Assembly (NCBI GenBank): GCA_020437545.1
Contig: JAGQWH010000009.1
Coordinates: forward strand, 1-48,223
DNA from: Ignavibacteriota bacterium
GTDB lineage: Bacteria > Bacteroidota > Ignavibacteria > Tepidaquicellales > Tepidaquicellaceae
DNA: 48,223 nt
Direction: 5' to 3'
Positions 3,860 to 46,966 of this stretch are shown piece after piece. Every line of letters begins with the position of its first letter. Within the stretch, counting starts at the first letter, position 1. The notes beneath the pieces are model-generated. The model had not been told where the DNA came from. It saw nothing but the letters and a program-made list of their open reading frames with translations, and did not search any database. Made by a program: the position numbers and the translations under genes.

Positions 3860-5650
3860 CTATTTTACGAGAAACATTTTTTTTGTTTCAAAAAAAATGC
3901 CTGTTTCTAATTTATAATAATAAACTCCCGAAGGAAGATCGTTTCCATTAAAGCTTACTTCGTAACTTCCTTCTCTCTGAACTCCATCAACTAGCGTCCT
4001 AACTTCATTACCCAAAGCGTCATAAATCTTTAATCTCACATTATTTCCGGAATTAGCTAATTCATATTTTATCACTGTTTCCGGATTAAATGGATTCGGG
4101 TAGTTCTGATAGAGATTAAAAGTTTTTTTTTGAATGGAATTGTTTTCATAGATGGAAATGATTGTTCCATTCTCAGTAATATTAACATTCTGATTTACCG
4201 GAACATTTGTGAAAACCTGATCCGTACCTGATTGCCATTCGACTTTGATCGAATCGATAACAGCAGCATTCCCAAAACCAAAATGCAGTATCAGATTCTG
4301 ACCGCAGTATCCCGACTGACCGTCTATCTCCTGCATCTGCCAGACATCGTTTCCGTTTATGTTTGCTTTGACTCTGACCTTTGTGCCGATCGCCGAACTG
4401 TTGGTAACAGTACCTTTGCATTTTATGTTTATCCATTTATTTCCATTAGAGAGTTCGTTTTTGTATAAACCATTTCTTTGATTTTCACCAAAAGTATTTG
4501 CAGTTGCAATATCGAGATCTCCGTCATTATCATAATCACCCCAGGCGAAACCGTATGTATATCCGGAATCATTGACAAGAATTCCATCAGTAACTTTTAC
4601 AAAAGATGCAGAACCTGTTTCTATAAGCATGTTCTTAAACAGTTTGTTTACAAGCTTCTGTGTAAAACCGGGAGGTACATAAGCCTGTGATATAAAGAGA
4701 TCAAGATCACCGTCATTGTCATAATCTCCCCAGCCGGTAACTGCATTATACCCTGATTCATTTGCAACCGGTCCGTCTGTGATCTTTGTGAAAGTAAAGT
4801 TTCCGTCATTGCGGTACAGAAAATTTTTCTGATTACCGTAATTAGATACGACTACATCAAGATCACCGTCATTATCATAGTCACCCCAGCTGCTGCTCCA
4901 GGATTCGCCGCCATTGGAAGTTAGAGGAGTATTAGTGATCTTTGTGAAAACTCCCGCGCCGTCATTTCTGTAAAGAAAATTGTTATTGTTGGATTCACGG
5001 CATACAAATAAGTCAAGGTCTCTGTCATTATCAATATCAACCCAGTTAGCGCCTCTTGAGAATCCTGTTTCAGATATCACAACTCCCGTATCCATTTTTT
5101 GAAAATCACCATTGCCAGTGTTTCTGTAAAGAAAATTTCTGTGATTGCTTCCTGCACTATTTGTCACAAATAGATCCAGCAATCCGTCGTTATCATAATC
5201 TCCCCAGCTGCATGTCTCAGAATAGCTTGGATCATTGCTCATTACTGCATCAGGCTGGAATGAAAAAGTACCGTTACCGGTATTCAGATAAAGTAACTTG
5301 ATCTTGTTATACCAGTTCACGACACATAGATCAGGAAGTCCGTCGTTATTATAATCACCCCAGCTTGCTCCGTCAGAAGGCAGGTTATCCTGAACTATTG
5401 CCTGACCTGTTATCTTTACAAACGTACCGTTATCATTTCTGTACAGATAATTATTCTGTCCGGTATTCAATCCGTTTGAAATGAAAAGATCAAGATCGTT
5501 GTCATTGTCAAAATCGATCCAGTTGACTGAGCGTGATGCACCGCTGTCGAGTCCTACTATGCTGTCAGTAATTTTAATAAAATCCTGACCCATTACAAGC
5601 GTTGAAACAAAAAAGAGGTTTAAAAGAAAAATTGTGATAATTGGTTTCAT
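3860..5650 (-). CDS. Secreted VCBS/FG-GAP repeat protein with UnbV-type domain and T9SS signal
   Basis: A 596-residue exported protein. Residues 1-22 are a signal peptide ending in VMGQ. Residues about 25-390 contain some seven repeats centred on WGDYDNDGDLDLFI, a calcium-binding D-x-D-x-D-G motif of the VCBS/FG-GAP beta-propeller. Residues about 400-490 (from NKWINIKCKG, with GTKVRV, GYCGQN and HFGFG) match the ASPIC/UnbV domain found after such propellers in CRTAC-type proteins. Residues about 515-596 (NLYQNYPNPFNPETVIKYEL to the KMFLVK end) are a type A T9SS sorting domain. The role is probably surface adhesion or carbohydrate/protein binding, but the ligand is unknown. It stands alone with its own terminator and diverges from the next gene across 158 bases. 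Confidence 0.9.
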   Translation of the reverse strand: MKPIITIFLLNLFFVSTLVMGQDFIKITDSIVGLDSGASRSVNWIDFDNDNDLDLFISNGLNTGQNNYLYRNDNGTFVKITGQAIVQDNLPSDGASWGDYNNDGLPDLCVVNWYNKIKLLYLNTGNGTFSFQPDAVMSNDPSYSETCSWGDYDNDGLLDLFVTNSAGSNHRNFLYRNTGNGDFQKMDTGVVISETGFSRGANWVDIDNDRDLDLFVCRESNNNNFLYRNDGAGVFTKITNTPLTSNGGESWSSSWGDYDNDGDLDVVVSNYGNQKNFLYRNDGNFTFTKITDGPVANESGYNAVTGWGDYDNDGDLDLFISQAYVPPGFTQKLVNKLFKNMLIETGSASFVKVTDGILVNDSGYTYGFAWGDYDNDGDLDIATANTFGENQRNGLYKNELSNGNKWINIKCKGTVTNSSAIGTKVRVKANINGNDVWQMQEIDGQSGYCGQNLILHFGFGNAAVIDSIKVEWQSGTDQVFTNVPVNQNVNITENGTIISIYENNSIQKKTFNLYQNYPNPFNPETVIKYELANSGNNVRLKIYDALGNEVRTLVDGVQREGSYEVSFNGNDLPSGVYYYKLETGIFFETKKMFLVK

Positions 5651-5808
5651 AATTTTATGTTAATGTTTTGCAAAATTTATTTTTGTTAATTTATGAATTA
5701 AGTAAACGGATTAAAACCATTTAGTTGCAGTGAAAACGGGTATAAAAAACATTCATTATTAGAATCCTGAATTCAGATAATTAACATTATAATTGTATAT
5801 CTTGTAAT

Positions 5809-40221: not shown

Positions 40222-40252
40222 TTGATAAAAAAATTAAGTATGCTTAAATTTG
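40222..40252 (+). promoter_or_regulatory. Promoter of the metal-uptake operon (TTG ... TAAATTTG)
   Basis: TTG at 40222-40224 and TAAATTTG at 40245-40252, spaced by 20 bases, as in Bacteroidota promoters (-33 TTG, -7 TAnnTTTG). It is 29 bases before the TTG start of the regulator gene and covers a candidate operator. Confidence 0.5.
40234..40247. promoter_or_regulatory. Candidate MntR-type operator
   Basis: Inverted repeat TTAAG-TATG-CTTAA (14 bases) lying between the -33 and -7 elements and overlapping the -7. A metal-loaded DtxR/MntR dimer bound here would block transcription. It is an AT-rich half-site and may be chance; no second copy with the same arms was found. Confidence 0.35.
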
Positions 40253-40281: not shown

Positions 40282-40932
40282 TTGAACAAAAGTTTAGAGG
40301 ACTATCTTAAGAATATTTATTCGATCAGAAATTCTGACGGAAAGGTTACTACAAGCATTCTTGCAGAAAGGCTTAAAATCTCACCCGCAGCCGTTAGTGA
40401 TATGATCTCCAAATTATCAAAATCAGGATACATTAAAAATATACCATATAAAGGATTCGAGCTCACAAAAAAAGGTTCGGCAATTGCCATTAATTTAGTA
40501 AGAAAGCACAGGATATGGGAGGTTTTTCTTGTTGAACAACTGAATTATACATGGGAAAATGTACATAATGAAGCTGAAAATCTTGAACATGCATCTTCAG
40601 ACGAATTGATTTCAAAACTCGAGAAGTTTCTTGAATATCCTAAATTCGATCCTCACGGTCACCCGATCCCTGATACGGAAGGCAGGATGCAGGAAATGAA
40701 GACCATTCCAGCATCAAATCTTAATACCGGAGATTCTGCAGTTATCAAACAGGTTTCTGACGAGAGCTCAGAAGTGCTTGTATATTTGTCAAAAGTCGGT
40801 TTAAAGCTTAATGATGAAATAAAGGTCATAGATAAAATCAATTTTGATAATTCTATTCAGATCCATTTCAGGTCAGGAAATATATTTTTAAGTGAAAAAC
40901 TAGCCGATAATATTTTTGTAAAATTATTGTAG
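40282..40932 (+). CDS. DtxR/MntR-family metal-dependent transcriptional regulator
   Basis: A 216-residue repressor-like protein starting at TTG 40282. A winged helix-turn-helix (residues about 15-65; RLKISPAAVSDMISKLSKSGY) is followed by a metal-binding and dimerisation domain. Candidate ligands by alignment with MntR/DtxR are Asp7, His76, Glu80, His95, Glu99, Glu102 and His103; Glu99 in place of the DtxR cysteine favours manganese over iron. Lys10 replaces the MntR Glu11. The C-terminal third (about 145-216; NLNTGDSAVIKQVSD to KLL) is an SH3-like FeoA domain. It heads the operon, with a promoter and a putative operator directly upstream, and is 7 bases from the binding-protein gene. Confidence 0.9.
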   Translation: MNKSLEDYLKNIYSIRNSDGKVTTSILAERLKISPAAVSDMISKLSKSGYIKNIPYKGFELTKKGSAIAINLVRKHRIWEVFLVEQLNYTWENVHNEAENLEHASSDELISKLEKFLEYPKFDPHGHPIPDTEGRMQEMKTIPASNLNTGDSAVIKQVSDESSEVLVYLSKVGLKLNDEIKVIDKINFDNSIQIHFRSGNIFLSEKLADNIFVKLL

Positions 40933-40939
40933 ACTCAAT

Positions 40940-41848
40940 ATGCCAAAACATATAATATTTTTATTAATATTTTCTTTGTCTGTATTGCCAGGTTGCGGAG
41001 ATAAAACTTCTGAGGATAGTACAAAAACTAAAAGCGATAAGATAGTTGCTGTATCTACTATTACTATAATAAATGATATAGTAAAGAATATAGGTAAAGA
41101 TAAAGTTGAAGCTTACAGTATCTGCGGAGTCGGAATCGATCCTCATACATATCATCCTAAACCCTCAGATCCCAGAATGGTGGTTAATAGTGATATTGTT
41201 TTCATAAATGGATTTGCGCTGGAACACTGGATAGAAGAAATGATAAGAGGAGCCGGCGGAAGTAAAACTGAAGTGGTAGTTACCGAAGGTTTAACTCCTA
41301 TGACTGACGAAAAAGGATTTGGAGATCCGGACCCTCATGCATGGTTTGATGTGACAAACGTAAAAAAGTATGCTGATAATGTTGCTAAAGGACTTATAGA
41401 AATTGATCCCGGGAATAAAGAATATTATGAAACTAATCTTAAAGAGTACCGGCTTAAACTGGATTCACTTGATGCCTGGATAAAAGAACAGATCAATACA
41501 ATTCCTGAATCACAGCGGGTATTGATAACTTCACATGATGCATTCAGATATTTCGGAAGAGCTTATAATATTGAGGTCAAAGGTCTTCAGGGAATTTCAA
41601 CTGAAGCAAAGATCAGAACGGAAGATCTCAAGAATCTTATCGATTATGTAAAACAGAAAGATCTCAAATCAGTGTTTATTGAAACAAGTGTCAATCCTAA
41701 ACTGCTTGAGCAGATATCATCAGAAACGAATGCAAAGATCGGCGGAACGCTATATTCGGATTCGATAGGAAATGAAGGAACTCCTGAGGGAACTTACATA
41801 GGAGCTGTAAAGCATAATGTTAATACTGTAGTTAATGCATTAAAATAA
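40940..41848 (+). CDS. Metal-binding lipoprotein of a Mn/Zn/Fe ABC importer (TroA-like)
   Basis: A 302-residue cluster-A solute-binding protein. A lipobox (LPGC, Cys19) anchors it outside the inner membrane. Metal ligands by family alignment are His69 (DPHTYHP), His133 (DPHAWFD), His199 (SHDAF) and Asp274 (YSDSIG), the His3-Asp set of TroA/ZnuA-like proteins. There is no His-rich loop, which is common in zinc-specific ZnuA, and neighbouring MntR and MntH genes argue for manganese; specificity is not proven. It delivers metal to the following ATPase and permease. Confidence 0.92.
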   Translation: MPKHIIFLLIFSLSVLPGCGDKTSEDSTKTKSDKIVAVSTITIINDIVKNIGKDKVEAYSICGVGIDPHTYHPKPSDPRMVVNSDIVFINGFALEHWIEEMIRGAGGSKTEVVVTEGLTPMTDEKGFGDPDPHAWFDVTNVKKYADNVAKGLIEIDPGNKEYYETNLKEYRLKLDSLDAWIKEQINTIPESQRVLITSHDAFRYFGRAYNIEVKGLQGISTEAKIRTEDLKNLIDYVKQKDLKSVFIETSVNPKLLEQISSETNAKIGGTLYSDSIGNEGTPEGTYIGAVKHNVNTVVNALK

Positions 41849-41851
41849 ATC

Positions 41852-42598
41852 ATGAATGTAATTAATGTAAAAAACTTAACTGTAACTTATAATAAAAAAC
41901 CTGCCATCAAAGGAATTAATCTTGATATAAGTGAAGGCAGTATAATTGGTATTGTCGGACCAAACGGCGCCGGTAAGTCAACTTTGTTAAAGGCTATTTT
42001 AGGACTTCTTCCTATTGACACAGGTGAAGTAAAGATCTTTGGAAAGGAAGTTAAAAGTTCATTGAAAAGAGTTGCCTATATTCCGCAGAAAGAACAGTTC
42101 GACTGGGATTTCCCCATCAATGTATCTGAAGTAGTAATGATGGGAAGATATCCATACATAAGCTTCTTTGGAAGACCGGATGCAAATGATAAAGAGATCG
42201 TTAATAAAGTATTAAAGAAAGTAGAGATGGATAAATATTCGCAGACTCAGATCAGAAATCTTTCAGGCGGTCAGCAGCAGAGGATATTTCTTGCAAGAGC
42301 GCTGGCACAGGAAAGTGATATATATTTTCTTGATGAACCCTTTGTCGGAGTCGATGCGAAAACGGAAGTTGCTATATTCAATCTTATCAAAGAGCTAAAG
42401 GCGGAAGGGAAGACGATCATGATAGTTCATCATGATCTTAGTAAAGTTGAAGATTATTTTGATAAACTTATTCTGATCAATCAGATTCTGATAGCTTTTG
42501 GGGAGACTAAGAAAGTATTTACCCCGGAACTTCTGCACAGAACATATGGTGGTCAGCTGACCATTCTTCAGAAAGCAGAACAGTTAATTGTAAATTAA
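41852..42598 (+). CDS. Metal ABC transporter ATP-binding protein
   Basis: A 248-residue ABC ATPase. Walker A GPNGAGKST is at 36-44, Q-loop region IPQKEQFDW at 77-85, signature LSGGQ at 137-141 and Walker B IYFLDEP at 157-163, followed by the H-loop in VHHDLSKVE. It powers the binding protein/permease system encoded around it. It begins 3 bases after the lipoprotein stop and overlaps the permease start by one base (TAATG). Confidence 0.95.
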   Translation: MNVINVKNLTVTYNKKPAIKGINLDISEGSIIGIVGPNGAGKSTLLKAILGLLPIDTGEVKIFGKEVKSSLKRVAYIPQKEQFDWDFPINVSEVVMMGRYPYISFFGRPDANDKEIVNKVLKKVEMDKYSQTQIRNLSGGQQQRIFLARALAQESDIYFLDEPFVGVDAKTEVAIFNLIKELKAEGKTIMIVHHDLSKVEDYFDKLILINQILIAFGETKKVFTPELLHRTYGGQLTILQKAEQLIVN

Positions 42599-43866
42599 TG
42601 GATATTCTTACAAAATATATTACAGAACCATTACAGTATGAATTCATACAGCGGGCACTGATAGCTTCCATAATGGTTGGAGTGAGCTGCGGACTCATCG
42701 GAACGTATATAATGCTCAGAAGACTGTCTCTTATAGGTGATGCTCTTGCGCATGCTGTCTTGCCCGGAGTAGTGATCGGATTCATGATAGCCGGAAAAGG
42801 AGCTTTAAGTTTGTTCATCGGAGCATTGACGGCGGGAATACTAACTTCAGTTCTGATAAGTTATGTTGAGCGGAATTCGAAGATTAAAGAAGACACTTCG
42901 ATCGGGATAATTTTTACCGGTGCATTTGCATTGGGTATTTTACTTGTGTCACAACTCAAACAGGTCCATATAGATCTTTCATCATATCTTTTCGGTGATG
43001 TCCTTGGTGTATCTGACTCGGATCTTATTCTTTCGTCAGTTATAACTGTTGTAATAATAATTTCAGTAATACTTTTTTACAGACAACTTTTAGTCACATC
43101 TTTTGATCCGACCATGGCTCACATTATCGGGATCTCAACAGCGGTTGTTCATTATTTTTTAATGACCTTACTTTCTATGTCAATAGTAGCCGGGTTGCAA
43201 TCTGTAGGTGTGATACTGATAATCGCTATGCTCATAACTCCTCCGGCTACGGCATTTTTGATTACAGATAAATTAATGAAGTTACTGTTACTTTCATGTA
43301 TGTTTGGCGTATTGTCAGCTGTAATAGGTCTGTATTTATCTTATCATATGAACTTCGCTTCAGGTGCTTCAATTGTTCTTGTATCGGTTTTCTTTTTTGG
43401 ACTGGCATTTTTATTTTCTCCAAAGGAAGGTGTGTTCATCAGGATGTTAAGAAGAAAAAAGAATTCTAAAATAAATCTGACCGAAGATATCATCAAGCTT
43501 ATCAGTAAAGAAGAGTATTCAGATAATTCAGGACTAATTGAATCCATTTCCGAAAAGCTCGGGATCCCAAAAAATAAGATATTCACTTCTTTAAGCAGAT
43601 TAAAAAAAATGGAACTTATTGATCAGCCAAACGGGAAATATGAACTTACTGAGAAGGGAAGGAAAGTTGCTGAGAGACTAGTACGTTCTCATAGATTATG
43701 GGAAACTTACATTGCCGAAAAAAATATCGTCAACATTGAAGATATTCATCAGGAGGCTGAAAAGTTTGAACACATTTTGTCAGATGATCTACTGTCTGAG
43801 ATTGATGAAGAGCTTGGTCATCCGCTGAAGGATCCCCACGGATCACCGATACCCAAAAAACATTAA
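42598..43866 (+). CDS. Metal ABC permease fused to a DtxR/MntR-like regulatory domain
   Basis: A 422-residue protein, about 140 longer than a usual ABC-3 permease. Residues 1-275 have the family's eight or so transmembrane helices, with ARAIASIMVG-like start (LIASIMVGVSCGLIGTY) and GDALAHAVLPG, the conserved permease motif. Residues about 292-422 form a complete DtxR/MntR-like module: a winged helix (about 293-350) with Asp297, and a metal/dimerisation domain with His365, Glu369, His384, Glu388, Glu391 and His392, ending in DPHGSPIP as in iron-dependent repressors. The SH3-like FeoA domain is missing. The tail would face the cytoplasm and may sense metal to gate transport, or bind DNA at the membrane. 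Glu388 at the Cys102 site points to Mn. Confidence 0.93.
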   Translation: MDILTKYITEPLQYEFIQRALIASIMVGVSCGLIGTYIMLRRLSLIGDALAHAVLPGVVIGFMIAGKGALSLFIGALTAGILTSVLISYVERNSKIKEDTSIGIIFTGAFALGILLVSQLKQVHIDLSSYLFGDVLGVSDSDLILSSVITVVIIISVILFYRQLLVTSFDPTMAHIIGISTAVVHYFLMTLLSMSIVAGLQSVGVILIIAMLITPPATAFLITDKLMKLLLLSCMFGVLSAVIGLYLSYHMNFASGASIVLVSVFFFGLAFLFSPKEGVFIRMLRRKKNSKINLTEDIIKLISKEEYSDNSGLIESISEKLGIPKNKIFTSLSRLKKMELIDQPNGKYELTEKGRKVAERLVRSHRLWETYIAEKNIVNIEDIHQEAEKFEHILSDDLLSEIDEELGHPLKDPHGSPIPKKH

Positions 43867-43922: not shown

Positions 43923-45320
43923 TTGAAAATCAGTAACAGTGATATTGAAGAAATTAAATCTGATTCATTAAACTCAGATGAAAACACGGAACCACTTAAC
44001 GGCTGGAAGAAACATGTAACATCATATTCACTTCCGGAGGTTTATTCTACTATCAATGTTCCTTCACAGGGTTCATTCTGGAAAAAACTGCTTGCATACA
44101 CAGGTCCGGGTTTAATGGTGGCCGTTGGTTACATGGATCCGGGCAACTGGGCTACGGATATTGCAGGTGGCGCCAGATTCGGATATATACTCATCAGTGT
44201 AATACTTATCTCAAATATCTTTGCTATCTTTTTACAGCATCTTTCTCTGAAGCTCGGTATAGTTACAGGCAGAGATCTTGCTCAGGCATGCAGGGATCAT
44301 TATTCAAAACCGGTAGCTTTTACTTTATGGGTACTGTGTGAAATTGCAATAGCTGCCTGTGATCTTGCGGAAGTGATCGGAACTGCAATTGCTTTGAATT
44401 TACTTTTCGGTATTCCGCTCATAGTTGGAGTAACTATTACTGTTATTGATGTGCTCGTAATTCTTATGTTTCAGTATAAAGGATTCAGATATCTTGAAAG
44501 CATCGTTGCCGGATTAATGGCAGTAATAATTTCATGTTTTACTTATGAGATCTTTGTGTCGAACCCGGATTTTATTCCCATACTTTCAGGTCTTTTGCCA
44601 TCTTCTCAGATAGTTTATAATCCTGATATGCTTTATATAGCAATTGGTATTCTCGGAGCAACCGTTATGCCTCATAATTTATACCTTCATTCGAGTATTG
44701 TTCAGACAAGAAAATATGAAAGAAATAAAACCGGAAAAAAAATGGCGGTTAAATTTGCTACAATAGATTCAACGGTTTCTTTATTTCTTGCATTCTTTAT
44801 TAATGCTGCAATTTTAATTGTAGCAGCCGCTACATTTCATTCAACGGGATATCAGGATGTCGCTGATATAGCTGATGCCTATCAGCTTTTAACTCCGATT
44901 CTTGGAGCAGGGATGGCAAGTACGGTGTTTGCAATTGCATTACTGGCATCAGGACAGAATTCGACTCTGACCGGTACACTCGCAGGGCAGATCGTCATGG
45001 AAGGATTTCTGAACATAAGATTAAAACCATGGCTGAGAAGATTGATCACAAGATTGATTGCGATAATACCGGCATTCATTGTAACTTTAATATACGGCGA
45101 AAAGGGTACGACAAGTCTTTTGATATTGAGTCAGGTCATTTTATCAATGCAGTTGAGTTTTGCAGTTGTACCTCTGATCCATTTTACAGGTGATAAAATA
45201 AAAATGGGTGAATTTGTTAATAAACCATGGCTGAAAATTACCGTTTATGTAATCTCAGTAATATTAATAATCTTTAATGTTTATCTGTTAATTGAAACCT
45301 TCAGGGAATGGTTTATATGA
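43923..45320 (+). CDS. mntH: NRAMP-family divalent metal transporter
   Basis: A 465-residue proton-coupled Mn(II)/Fe(II) importer. The metal-binding DPGNWATD (residues 72-79) in helix 1 and the TVMPHNLYLHSSIVQTR segment in helix 6 (Met/His metal ligands) are diagnostic; about 11-12 transmembrane helices. The start is TTG 43923: the frame meets a stop just upstream and the next Met is deep inside helix 1. The first 45 residues are a hydrophilic extension. It lies 56 bases after the permease-regulator gene, so it may share regulation or be driven from its own promoter. Confidence 0.95.
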   Translation: MKISNSDIEEIKSDSLNSDENTEPLNGWKKHVTSYSLPEVYSTINVPSQGSFWKKLLAYTGPGLMVAVGYMDPGNWATDIAGGARFGYILISVILISNIFAIFLQHLSLKLGIVTGRDLAQACRDHYSKPVAFTLWVLCEIAIAACDLAEVIGTAIALNLLFGIPLIVGVTITVIDVLVILMFQYKGFRYLESIVAGLMAVIISCFTYEIFVSNPDFIPILSGLLPSSQIVYNPDMLYIAIGILGATVMPHNLYLHSSIVQTRKYERNKTGKKMAVKFATIDSTVSLFLAFFINAAILIVAAATFHSTGYQDVADIADAYQLLTPILGAGMASTVFAIALLASGQNSTLTGTLAGQIVMEGFLNIRLKPWLRRLITRLIAIIPAFIVTLIYGEKGTTSLLILSQVILSMQLSFAVVPLIHFTGDKIKMGEFVNKPWLKITVYVISVILIIFNVYLLIETFREWFI

Positions 45321-45856: not shown

Positions 45857-46966
45857 ATGATAGACAAAGATACACTTGAGGTTTGGAATCATCACCTGCA
45901 GGACGAAGCCGATGCAGCTTACCTATACAGGATACTCGGCAGACTTGAAAAGAATGAAAACAAAAGTAAGATATATATTCAGCTTGCTGTAGTAGAGGAC
46001 AAACATAAAGATGTATGGCTTGATCTGTTTTCCAAAAATAATATAAATAAAAAATCACCGGCGCCATCTTCAAGAGCAAAGTTTTTCGGATGGATCGCAA
46101 ATAAATTCGGGACAGGTTTACTTTCTAAAATGATGCTTCGTGAAGAAGGGCTGGAAGTTAAATCATATCTGGGCTTGTATAAATCAAGCAATTCAAAACA
46201 GACAAAAGACATTGCGCTGCAGCTTGCAAAGGATTCGGCGGAGCATTCGGATAAACTTACTACATTACTGGATTCGGAAGGTGAGTCATGGCATCAGACT
46301 GAGTCAGGCGGCATGCTGAGGAATGTGATCTATGGATTCAATGACGGACTGACAGCCAATTTCGGTCTTATTGCAGGAGTGATTGGAGCAAATGTTCAGC
46401 CGCATATAATTCTTCTGACAGGAATCTCGGGAATGTTTGCCGATGCTTTATCAATGGCGTCATCAGGCTATCTTGCAGCGAAAAGTCAGAATGAAGTTTA
46501 TGAATATGAAAAAAGAATGGAAGCCGATGAGATAAGGTTCATGCCCGAACTCGAAGCCGAGGAACTCTCACTTATCTACCAGGCAAAAGGCATGACCGAA
46601 ACTGATGCAAAAAATCTTGCTGATGATATCATGAAAGATCCCGAACTGGCTTTGAAAGAAAGTGTCAGAGAAGAACTCGGCATAAGTGAAAATGATTCTA
46701 CACCTTTCCGCGAAGCATGGATAACCGGACTTGCAACAGCTATTGGAGCATTGATCCCGGTCGCACCGTTTTTCTTTCTTGAAGGAGTGGTAGCTATATG
46801 GACATCTTTTATAATTTCAATGATAGCTCACTTTTTAGTCGGCGCAGCGAGAAGCGCATTTACGGGAAGGAGTATATTCAGAAGCGGGTTTGATATGTTT
46901 ATTGTGGGTATGGGAATAGCAGTGGTTGGATATTTTATCGGGGAGCTGATATCGAAGTATTTTTAA
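45857..46966 (+). CDS. Ferritin-like / VIT1-CCC1 fusion (MbfA-type)
   Basis: A 369-residue protein. Residues about 1-140 form a rubrerythrin-like ferritin domain with Glu17, Glu47 and His50 (VVEDKHKDVW) of a di-iron site and a second E-x-x-H (DSAEHSD) near 128-131. Residues about 150-369 are a VIT1/CCC1-type membrane domain with four to five helices (GFNDGLTANFGLIAGVIGA, then GMFADALSMASSGYLAAKSQ, which is the classic VIT motif). The same order is known from MbfA of rhizobia, an iron exporter. So this protein probably senses or oxidises cytoplasmic Fe/Mn and exports it, opposing the importers encoded upstream. It lies in divergent orientation to the lipoprotein. Confidence 0.92.
   Translation: MIDKDTLEVWNHHLQDEADAAYLYRILGRLEKNENKSKIYIQLAVVEDKHKDVWLDLFSKNNINKKSPAPSSRAKFFGWIANKFGTGLLSKMMLREEGLEVKSYLGLYKSSNSKQTKDIALQLAKDSAEHSDKLTTLLDSEGESWHQTESGGMLRNVIYGFNDGLTANFGLIAGVIGANVQPHIILLTGISGMFADALSMASSGYLAAKSQNEVYEYEKRMEADEIRFMPELEAEELSLIYQAKGMTETDAKNLADDIMKDPELALKESVREELGISENDSTPFREAWITGLATAIGALIPVAPFFFLEGVVAIWTSFIISMIAHFLVGAARSAFTGRSIFRSGFDMFIVGMGIAVVGYFIGELISKYF

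Follow-up and report, generated by a model that had tools for sequence, protein, structure and literature searches.

We propose that the protein encoded at 42598..43866 on the forward strand of the window, i.e., of the whole 48,223-nt stretch of DNA analysed here, is a fusion in which the permease of an Mn/Fe ABC importer would carry an on-board cytosolic metal sensor, derived from a DtxR-type repressor, that slows the import when cytosolic Mn/Fe is high. We consider this gating role, which we infer from sequence comparison and from a structure model, to be reasonably probable. The sensor reading is favoured because the metal ligands of the fused module are kept, its DNA-reading face is lost, the operon has a separate repressor and the linker between the permease and the sensor is fixed and rigid. 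If the fusion does gate the import, it would be a fast post-translational brake on Mn/Fe uptake that is built from a gene regulator.

The fusion has 422 residues, starts with an ATG codon and is open throughout, with the junction between permease and sensor in frame. Residues 1-278 (42598..43431) make up the permease part, where Pfam places an ABC-3 domain at residues 13-273 (E 3e-81) and where the model matches PsaC (7kyp_D: Z 36.9, rmsd 2.1 over 270, 42% identity). Then follow, all on the forward strand, a lever helix of residues 279-305 (43432..43512), which in the AlphaFold2 model links the membrane part with the first helix of the sensor and which carries D297; a winged helix of residues 291-350 (43468..43647), assigned by a DtxR-family fold match and having lost the DNA-contact residues; and the metal-binding/dimerisation domain Fe_dep_repr_C of residues 351-420 (43648..43857), with the ligands H365, E369, H384, E388, E391 and H392, for which the Pfam match (E 2e-25) is far above the cut-off. 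In the Pfam scan of the fusion protein the Fe_dep_repress model gave no match on the winged helix. The first-pass annotation had described an ABC-3 permease running without a stop into a winged helix and a DtxR/MntR domain, and with this description both the ORF and Pfam agree. An assembly error, frameshift or chimera at 43440-43480 is excluded, because the fusion recurs with the same uninterrupted junction in relatives that are 90% identical within the genus, 61-76% within the family and order, and 31-54% at greater distance. The permease part has, by sequence position, the residues D48, H52 and D99 of the Mn path, which are homologous to the essential residues D47, H51 and D94 of MntBC (PMC8487065), and D48 and H52 are nearly invariant among 45 fusions. 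It is also noted that a AAGGAAGG stretch lies 12 bases before the codon for Met283, where an internal start would free the tail, but since Met283 is not conserved in the homologue alignment, such a start is rejected as a conserved mechanism.

The earlier claim that all key ligands are kept is right for D297, H365, E369, H384, E388, E391, H392 and the DPHGSPIP motif, which were found where they had been placed; it goes too far in that the position of Glu11 in B. subtilis MntR is occupied here by Lys300 and that the C-terminal SH3 domain is absent. A Lys at this MntR Glu11 position is common to the fused tail and the standalone DtxRs of the compared genomes. To see what the fused module has kept and lost, the fused and standalone copies can be set against each other in the 27 operons that carry both, with the DNA-contact positions taken from the MntR and IdeR DNA complexes (PMC11275975, PMC8464063). 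The mean pairwise identity in the metal domain is 0.61 for the standalone copies vs 0.54 for the fused ones, and in the recognition-helix segment it is 0.59 vs 0.22. At the DNA-contact positions the fused copies mostly differ from the residues kept in the standalones, and the wing Tyr, present in 27/27 standalones, occurs in 0/27 fused copies (deleted in 23). His365, Glu369, Glu391 and His392 are each kept in all 27 fused copies, His384 in 26 and Glu388 in 25 of them (93-100% for these and the preceding four), while Asp297 is retained as D in 17/27 (63%), with N or H replacing it in many relatives having two permeases. Between the window and its congener, where dS is near saturation and hence dN alone was used, dN amounts to 0.176 for the fused winged helix, 0.057 for the fused metal domain and 0.023 for the permease, and to 0.003 for the first 131 residues of the standalone DtxR. 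As judged by these alignments and the model, the fused tail has kept its metal ligands and lost its DNA-contact face; by this comparison, the fused copy of most sampled lineages cannot read DNA in the conserved way, and its metal site is under strong selection.

The regulation of transcription can be assigned to another gene of the same operon. The standalone DtxR/MntR-type regulator (40282..40932, forward strand, TTG start), which has an HTH, a metal/dimerisation and a FeoA/SH3 domain, with Fe_dep_repress, Fe_dep_repr_C and FeoA all exceeding the Pfam cut-off, is preceded just upstream by the palindrome TTAAGTATGCTTAA (40234..40247, forward strand), its predicted operator. The pattern TTARG-N4-CYTAA has its single match in the whole 48,223-nt window at this place, and it is present upstream of the standalone DtxR in 22/31 operons, where 0.09 is expected from resampled sequence; upstream of the fused gene it was found in 0/37. 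Since a conserved palindrome stands before the standalone DtxR and none before the fused gene, the standalone DtxR is likely the transcriptional regulator of the operon.

Downstream of this regulator, and likewise on the forward strand, come a metal-binding lipoprotein of the ZnuA/EfaA type of substrate-binding protein (40940..41848, Pfam ZnuA), the importer ABC ATPase (41852..42598, Pfam ABC_tran), the fusion as the fourth gene, an MntH/Nramp divalent metal transporter (43923..45320, TTG start, NCBIfam MntH above cut-off) and a VIT-family metal transporter (45857..46966, Pfam VIT1). The order of the first four genes recurs in relatives, nearly all of which have the standalone DtxR in the same operon; MntH adjoins the fusion in several of them and a VIT-family gene adjoins it in two loci (L063 and L003). 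The VIT-family transporter beside the Mn/Fe import genes is possibly an exporter; its protein shows a weak N-terminal rubrerythrin-like match, below the cut-off. The ATG of the fusion overlaps the TAA stop of the ATPase gene by one base, and with this shared base the two genes are probably translationally coupled. The ATPase has 248 residues and only ATPase-type Pfam models match it above cut-off; the sensor sits on the permease. As for the imported metal, the lipoprotein is matched best by the NCBIfam models for Mn/Fe EfaA and Zn AztC, and the ATPase by that for the manganese/iron ABC ATP-binding protein; all these matches are below the curated cut-offs, and the family models of the two proteins point to Mn/Fe. 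The genome holds no second ABC-3 permease, and because the fusion is thus the sole one, two copies of it should make up the permease dimer of the importer, each with its tail. The genome has two Fe_dep_repr_C domains, that of the fusion and that of the standalone regulator.

The linker between the two parts of the fusion has an exact length. The segment that runs from Pro275 to Asp297 is exactly 23 residues long in 107 of 109 alignment rows, which cover several phyla (36/37 and 71/72 fused rows of two alignments, with a few rows in both), unlike the stretch from residue 297 to residue 365, containing the winged helix, which varies from 66 to 82. In the AlphaFold2 model, which is of the monomer (mean pLDDT 91.6, pTM 0.84), residues 279-305 form one continuous helix that leaves the membrane part and continues into the first helix of the sensor, and the tail matches DR2539 best among the DtxR-family structures (Z 19.1, rmsd 2.0 over 132). 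Such a predicted helix of fixed length is what fits a mechanical link, and it is not needed by a cleavable or floppy tether.

Based on these features, our model is as follows. In the homodimeric permease of the Mn/Fe ABC importer, the DtxR-derived sensor would be a firmly attached regulatory domain on the cytosolic side. At high cytosolic Mn/Fe, the metal would bind between the lever helix, through D297, and the metal domain, through H365, E388, E391 and H392. The bound metal would then hold both lever helices of the dimeric permease in a single arrangement, in the way in which metal pins the winged helices in DtxR/MntR, and with the levers pinned the transport cycle would be slowed or stopped. 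The labour would be split between the two copies, with the standalone DtxR controlling transcription and the fused copy controlling transport activity. It is noted that one clamp mechanism may not hold for all fusions, because many relatives with two permeases have a single tail per transporter, with N or H at the position of D297.

Fusions are present in about 23 of the 296 sampled genomes of the phylum. Among the best 80 loci of the genome scan they occur in Bacteroidota, Latescibacterota, Omnitrophota, Planctomycetota, Verrucomicrobiota/Kiritimatiellae and Bdellovibrionales, with a divergent fusion in Thermomicrobiales, and the chlamydial YtgCR is absent from these 80 loci. Four forms can be distinguished: one permease with a tail, as in the window (form A); two permeases of which the first has a tail (form B); two permeases that each have a winged helix and no metal domain (form C); and two permeases that both have full tails (form D, 13 loci). 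The model of form C has a continuous helix, residues 284-311, as in the fusion of the window, plus the winged helix, and its tails are covered by no Pfam model in the members scanned. Loci of form C (L053-L061, L146, L149, L162, L167, L168, L171, L173, L175, L177, L179, L180 and L181) were seen in genomes of Flavobacteriia, Anaerolineae, Rhodothermaceae, Sulfomarinibacter and Tissierellia. In the pairs where both permeases are tailed (L130, L132, L136, L142, L144, L148, L151, L154-L157, L160, L163 and L176), the first tail typically has D for the H384 ligand and lacks the DPHG end while the second tail retains H and DPHG, a difference in sequence that suggests an asymmetric sensor pair. The forms in which both permeases have full tails and those with winged helices only both accord with a domain acting within the transporter dimer.

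Fused modules and standalone DtxRs split on one branch in three trees (full module, metal domain alone and a mixture-model subset), which have 75-144 columns and long branches, and by this single split a single origin of the fused modules is not proven. With the fused permease tails, and not with the standalones, seven membrane-anchored modules (L203-L209) group in the tree. These proteins of relatives have about 330-390 residues, with one predicted N-terminal membrane helix, a winged helix without a conserved recognition helix, and Fe_dep_repr_C and FeoA domains; examples are the ORF 4659-5694 on the minus strand of L209 (reversed coordinates) and 985-2010 on the minus strand of L029. Two of the membrane-anchored modules adjoin a FeoB G-domain gene, several adjoin a standalone DtxR, and two share the 23-residue spacing.

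The sensor reading has to be weighed against a precedent. According to PMC5599777 and PMC7755916, YtgCR (CT069) of Chlamydia trachomatis is a permease whose DtxR tail is cleaved off to give an iron-dependent repressor, and 11 phyla were reported in 2012 to have fusions of a permease with a repressor. The suggestion of the first-pass annotation that the fusion may not be new was therefore correct, and for this one member its view that such fusions have no described function is wrong. A published characterisation exists for the architecture, and the mechanism in the lineage of the window is not part of it. The YtgR product is reported there to be 28-30 kDa, far above a DtxR module of about 130-140 residues, and therefore would still include part of the permease. 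It speaks against the sensor reading that the homologous chlamydial tail, after cleavage, is reported in PMC5599777 to bind DNA.

On that precedent the tail in the window would likewise be cleaved from the permease and would repress the operon as a soluble, metal-dependent regulator, a reading for which the same order of domains as in YtgCR can be adduced together with two complete small genomes, G253 and G269 (L094, L095), where the fused module is the only Fe_dep_repr_C domain. In these two genomes, however, the recognition helix is not canonical and differs between the two, and in the window the operon is headed by a full standalone DtxR with its own predicted operator, the fused copy lacks the DNA-contact residues and the wing tip, and the linker is a continuous predicted helix of fixed length rather than a loop. 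We thus think a YtgCR-type role unlikely here; judged by sequence and model, the published YtgCR mechanism does not fit the lineage of the window.

It appears similarly improbable that the tail forms a heterodimer with the standalone DtxR, which it would poison or keep trapped at the membrane, thereby reporting the state of the transporter to transcription. The two copies do have the dimerisation domain in common and are encoded in one operon, and in many relatives with two permeases each transporter has a single, unpaired tail; yet two tails are available for pairing with one another in the importer of the window and in the forms with both permeases tailed, the tails that have a winged helix only would be left unexplained, and the copies fall into separate lineages across all phyla sampled, so that a kept interface would need proof.

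A passive structural role, in which the tail would serve to stabilise the dimeric permease or to dock the ATPase and the metal site would be structural only, would suit the winged-helix-only tails, and the exact linker length suits any rigid docking role; against it, the near-perfect ligand retention in the class of the window suggests that the tails have been selected to bind metal reversibly, in the manner of DtxR/MntR, and we give such a role a low probability. That the tail binds DNA while attached to the permease, for which there are the presence of a winged helix and the mention of repression by the full-length chlamydial protein as a possibility in PMC5599777, is very improbable given the loss of the DNA-contact positions and the wing Tyr and the lack of a conserved operator before the fused gene. 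Of the two functions that had been put forward at first, a sensor on board the transporter is hence the favoured one, by the ligands, the lost DNA face, the separate repressor and the linker, and a DNA tether at the membrane is disfavoured because the recognition helix and the wing are not conserved.

The sensor reading may be extended tentatively, with slightly less than an even chance in our estimate, to a broad class of importers comprising ABC-3 permeases of several phyla and the FeoB-adjacent, membrane-anchored sister clade, in which DtxR-derived modules would have given up DNA binding and would sense cytosolic metal for the transporter via a fixed helical lever. YtgCR would then be an exception or need re-examination.

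Finally, we compare the fusion with known systems. With YtgCR, known to us from its published description, it shares an ABC-3 permease and a C-terminal DtxR module in one reading frame within the operon of a metal ABC importer. In YtgCR, however, the tail is itself the DtxR-type regulator and is reportedly cleaved and represses, whereas the operon of the window has a standalone DtxR with a predicted operator, and its tail no longer has the DNA-contact residues; moreover, Chlamydia has a second permease, YtgD, whereas the genome of the window has one ABC-3 permease and the relatives of form B have two. The fusion architecture was known already; the case of the window differs in having a separate repressor preceded by an operator of its own, in the loss of the DNA-contact face and in the rigid linker. 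The literature found describes permease-DtxR fusions for Chlamydia only, where they serve to produce a repressor, and in the literature searched no gating or trans-inhibition role is described for a DtxR domain on a permease. With PsaBC of S. pneumoniae and MntBC of B. anthracis the fusion has in common the permease fold, the homodimeric permease and the essential residues of the Mn path, but their permeases end after the last helix, without a sensor domain. With the repressors of the DtxR/MntR family (DR2539, IdeR, SloR and MntR) the tail shares the fold and the metal ligands, but it is attached to the membrane and lacks a conserved recognition helix, the wing tip and the SH3 domain. In the trans-inhibited importers MetNI and ModBC, a cytosolic substrate-sensing domain on the importer slows the import when the substrate is plentiful. 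The fusion would resemble them in having an importer-attached cytosolic sensing domain that slows the import, but their domain is on the ATPase and has an unrelated fold, whereas here it is on the permease and is DtxR-derived; if the proposed gating is true, the fusion would be the transition-metal counterpart to the trans-inhibition of the methionine and molybdate importers.
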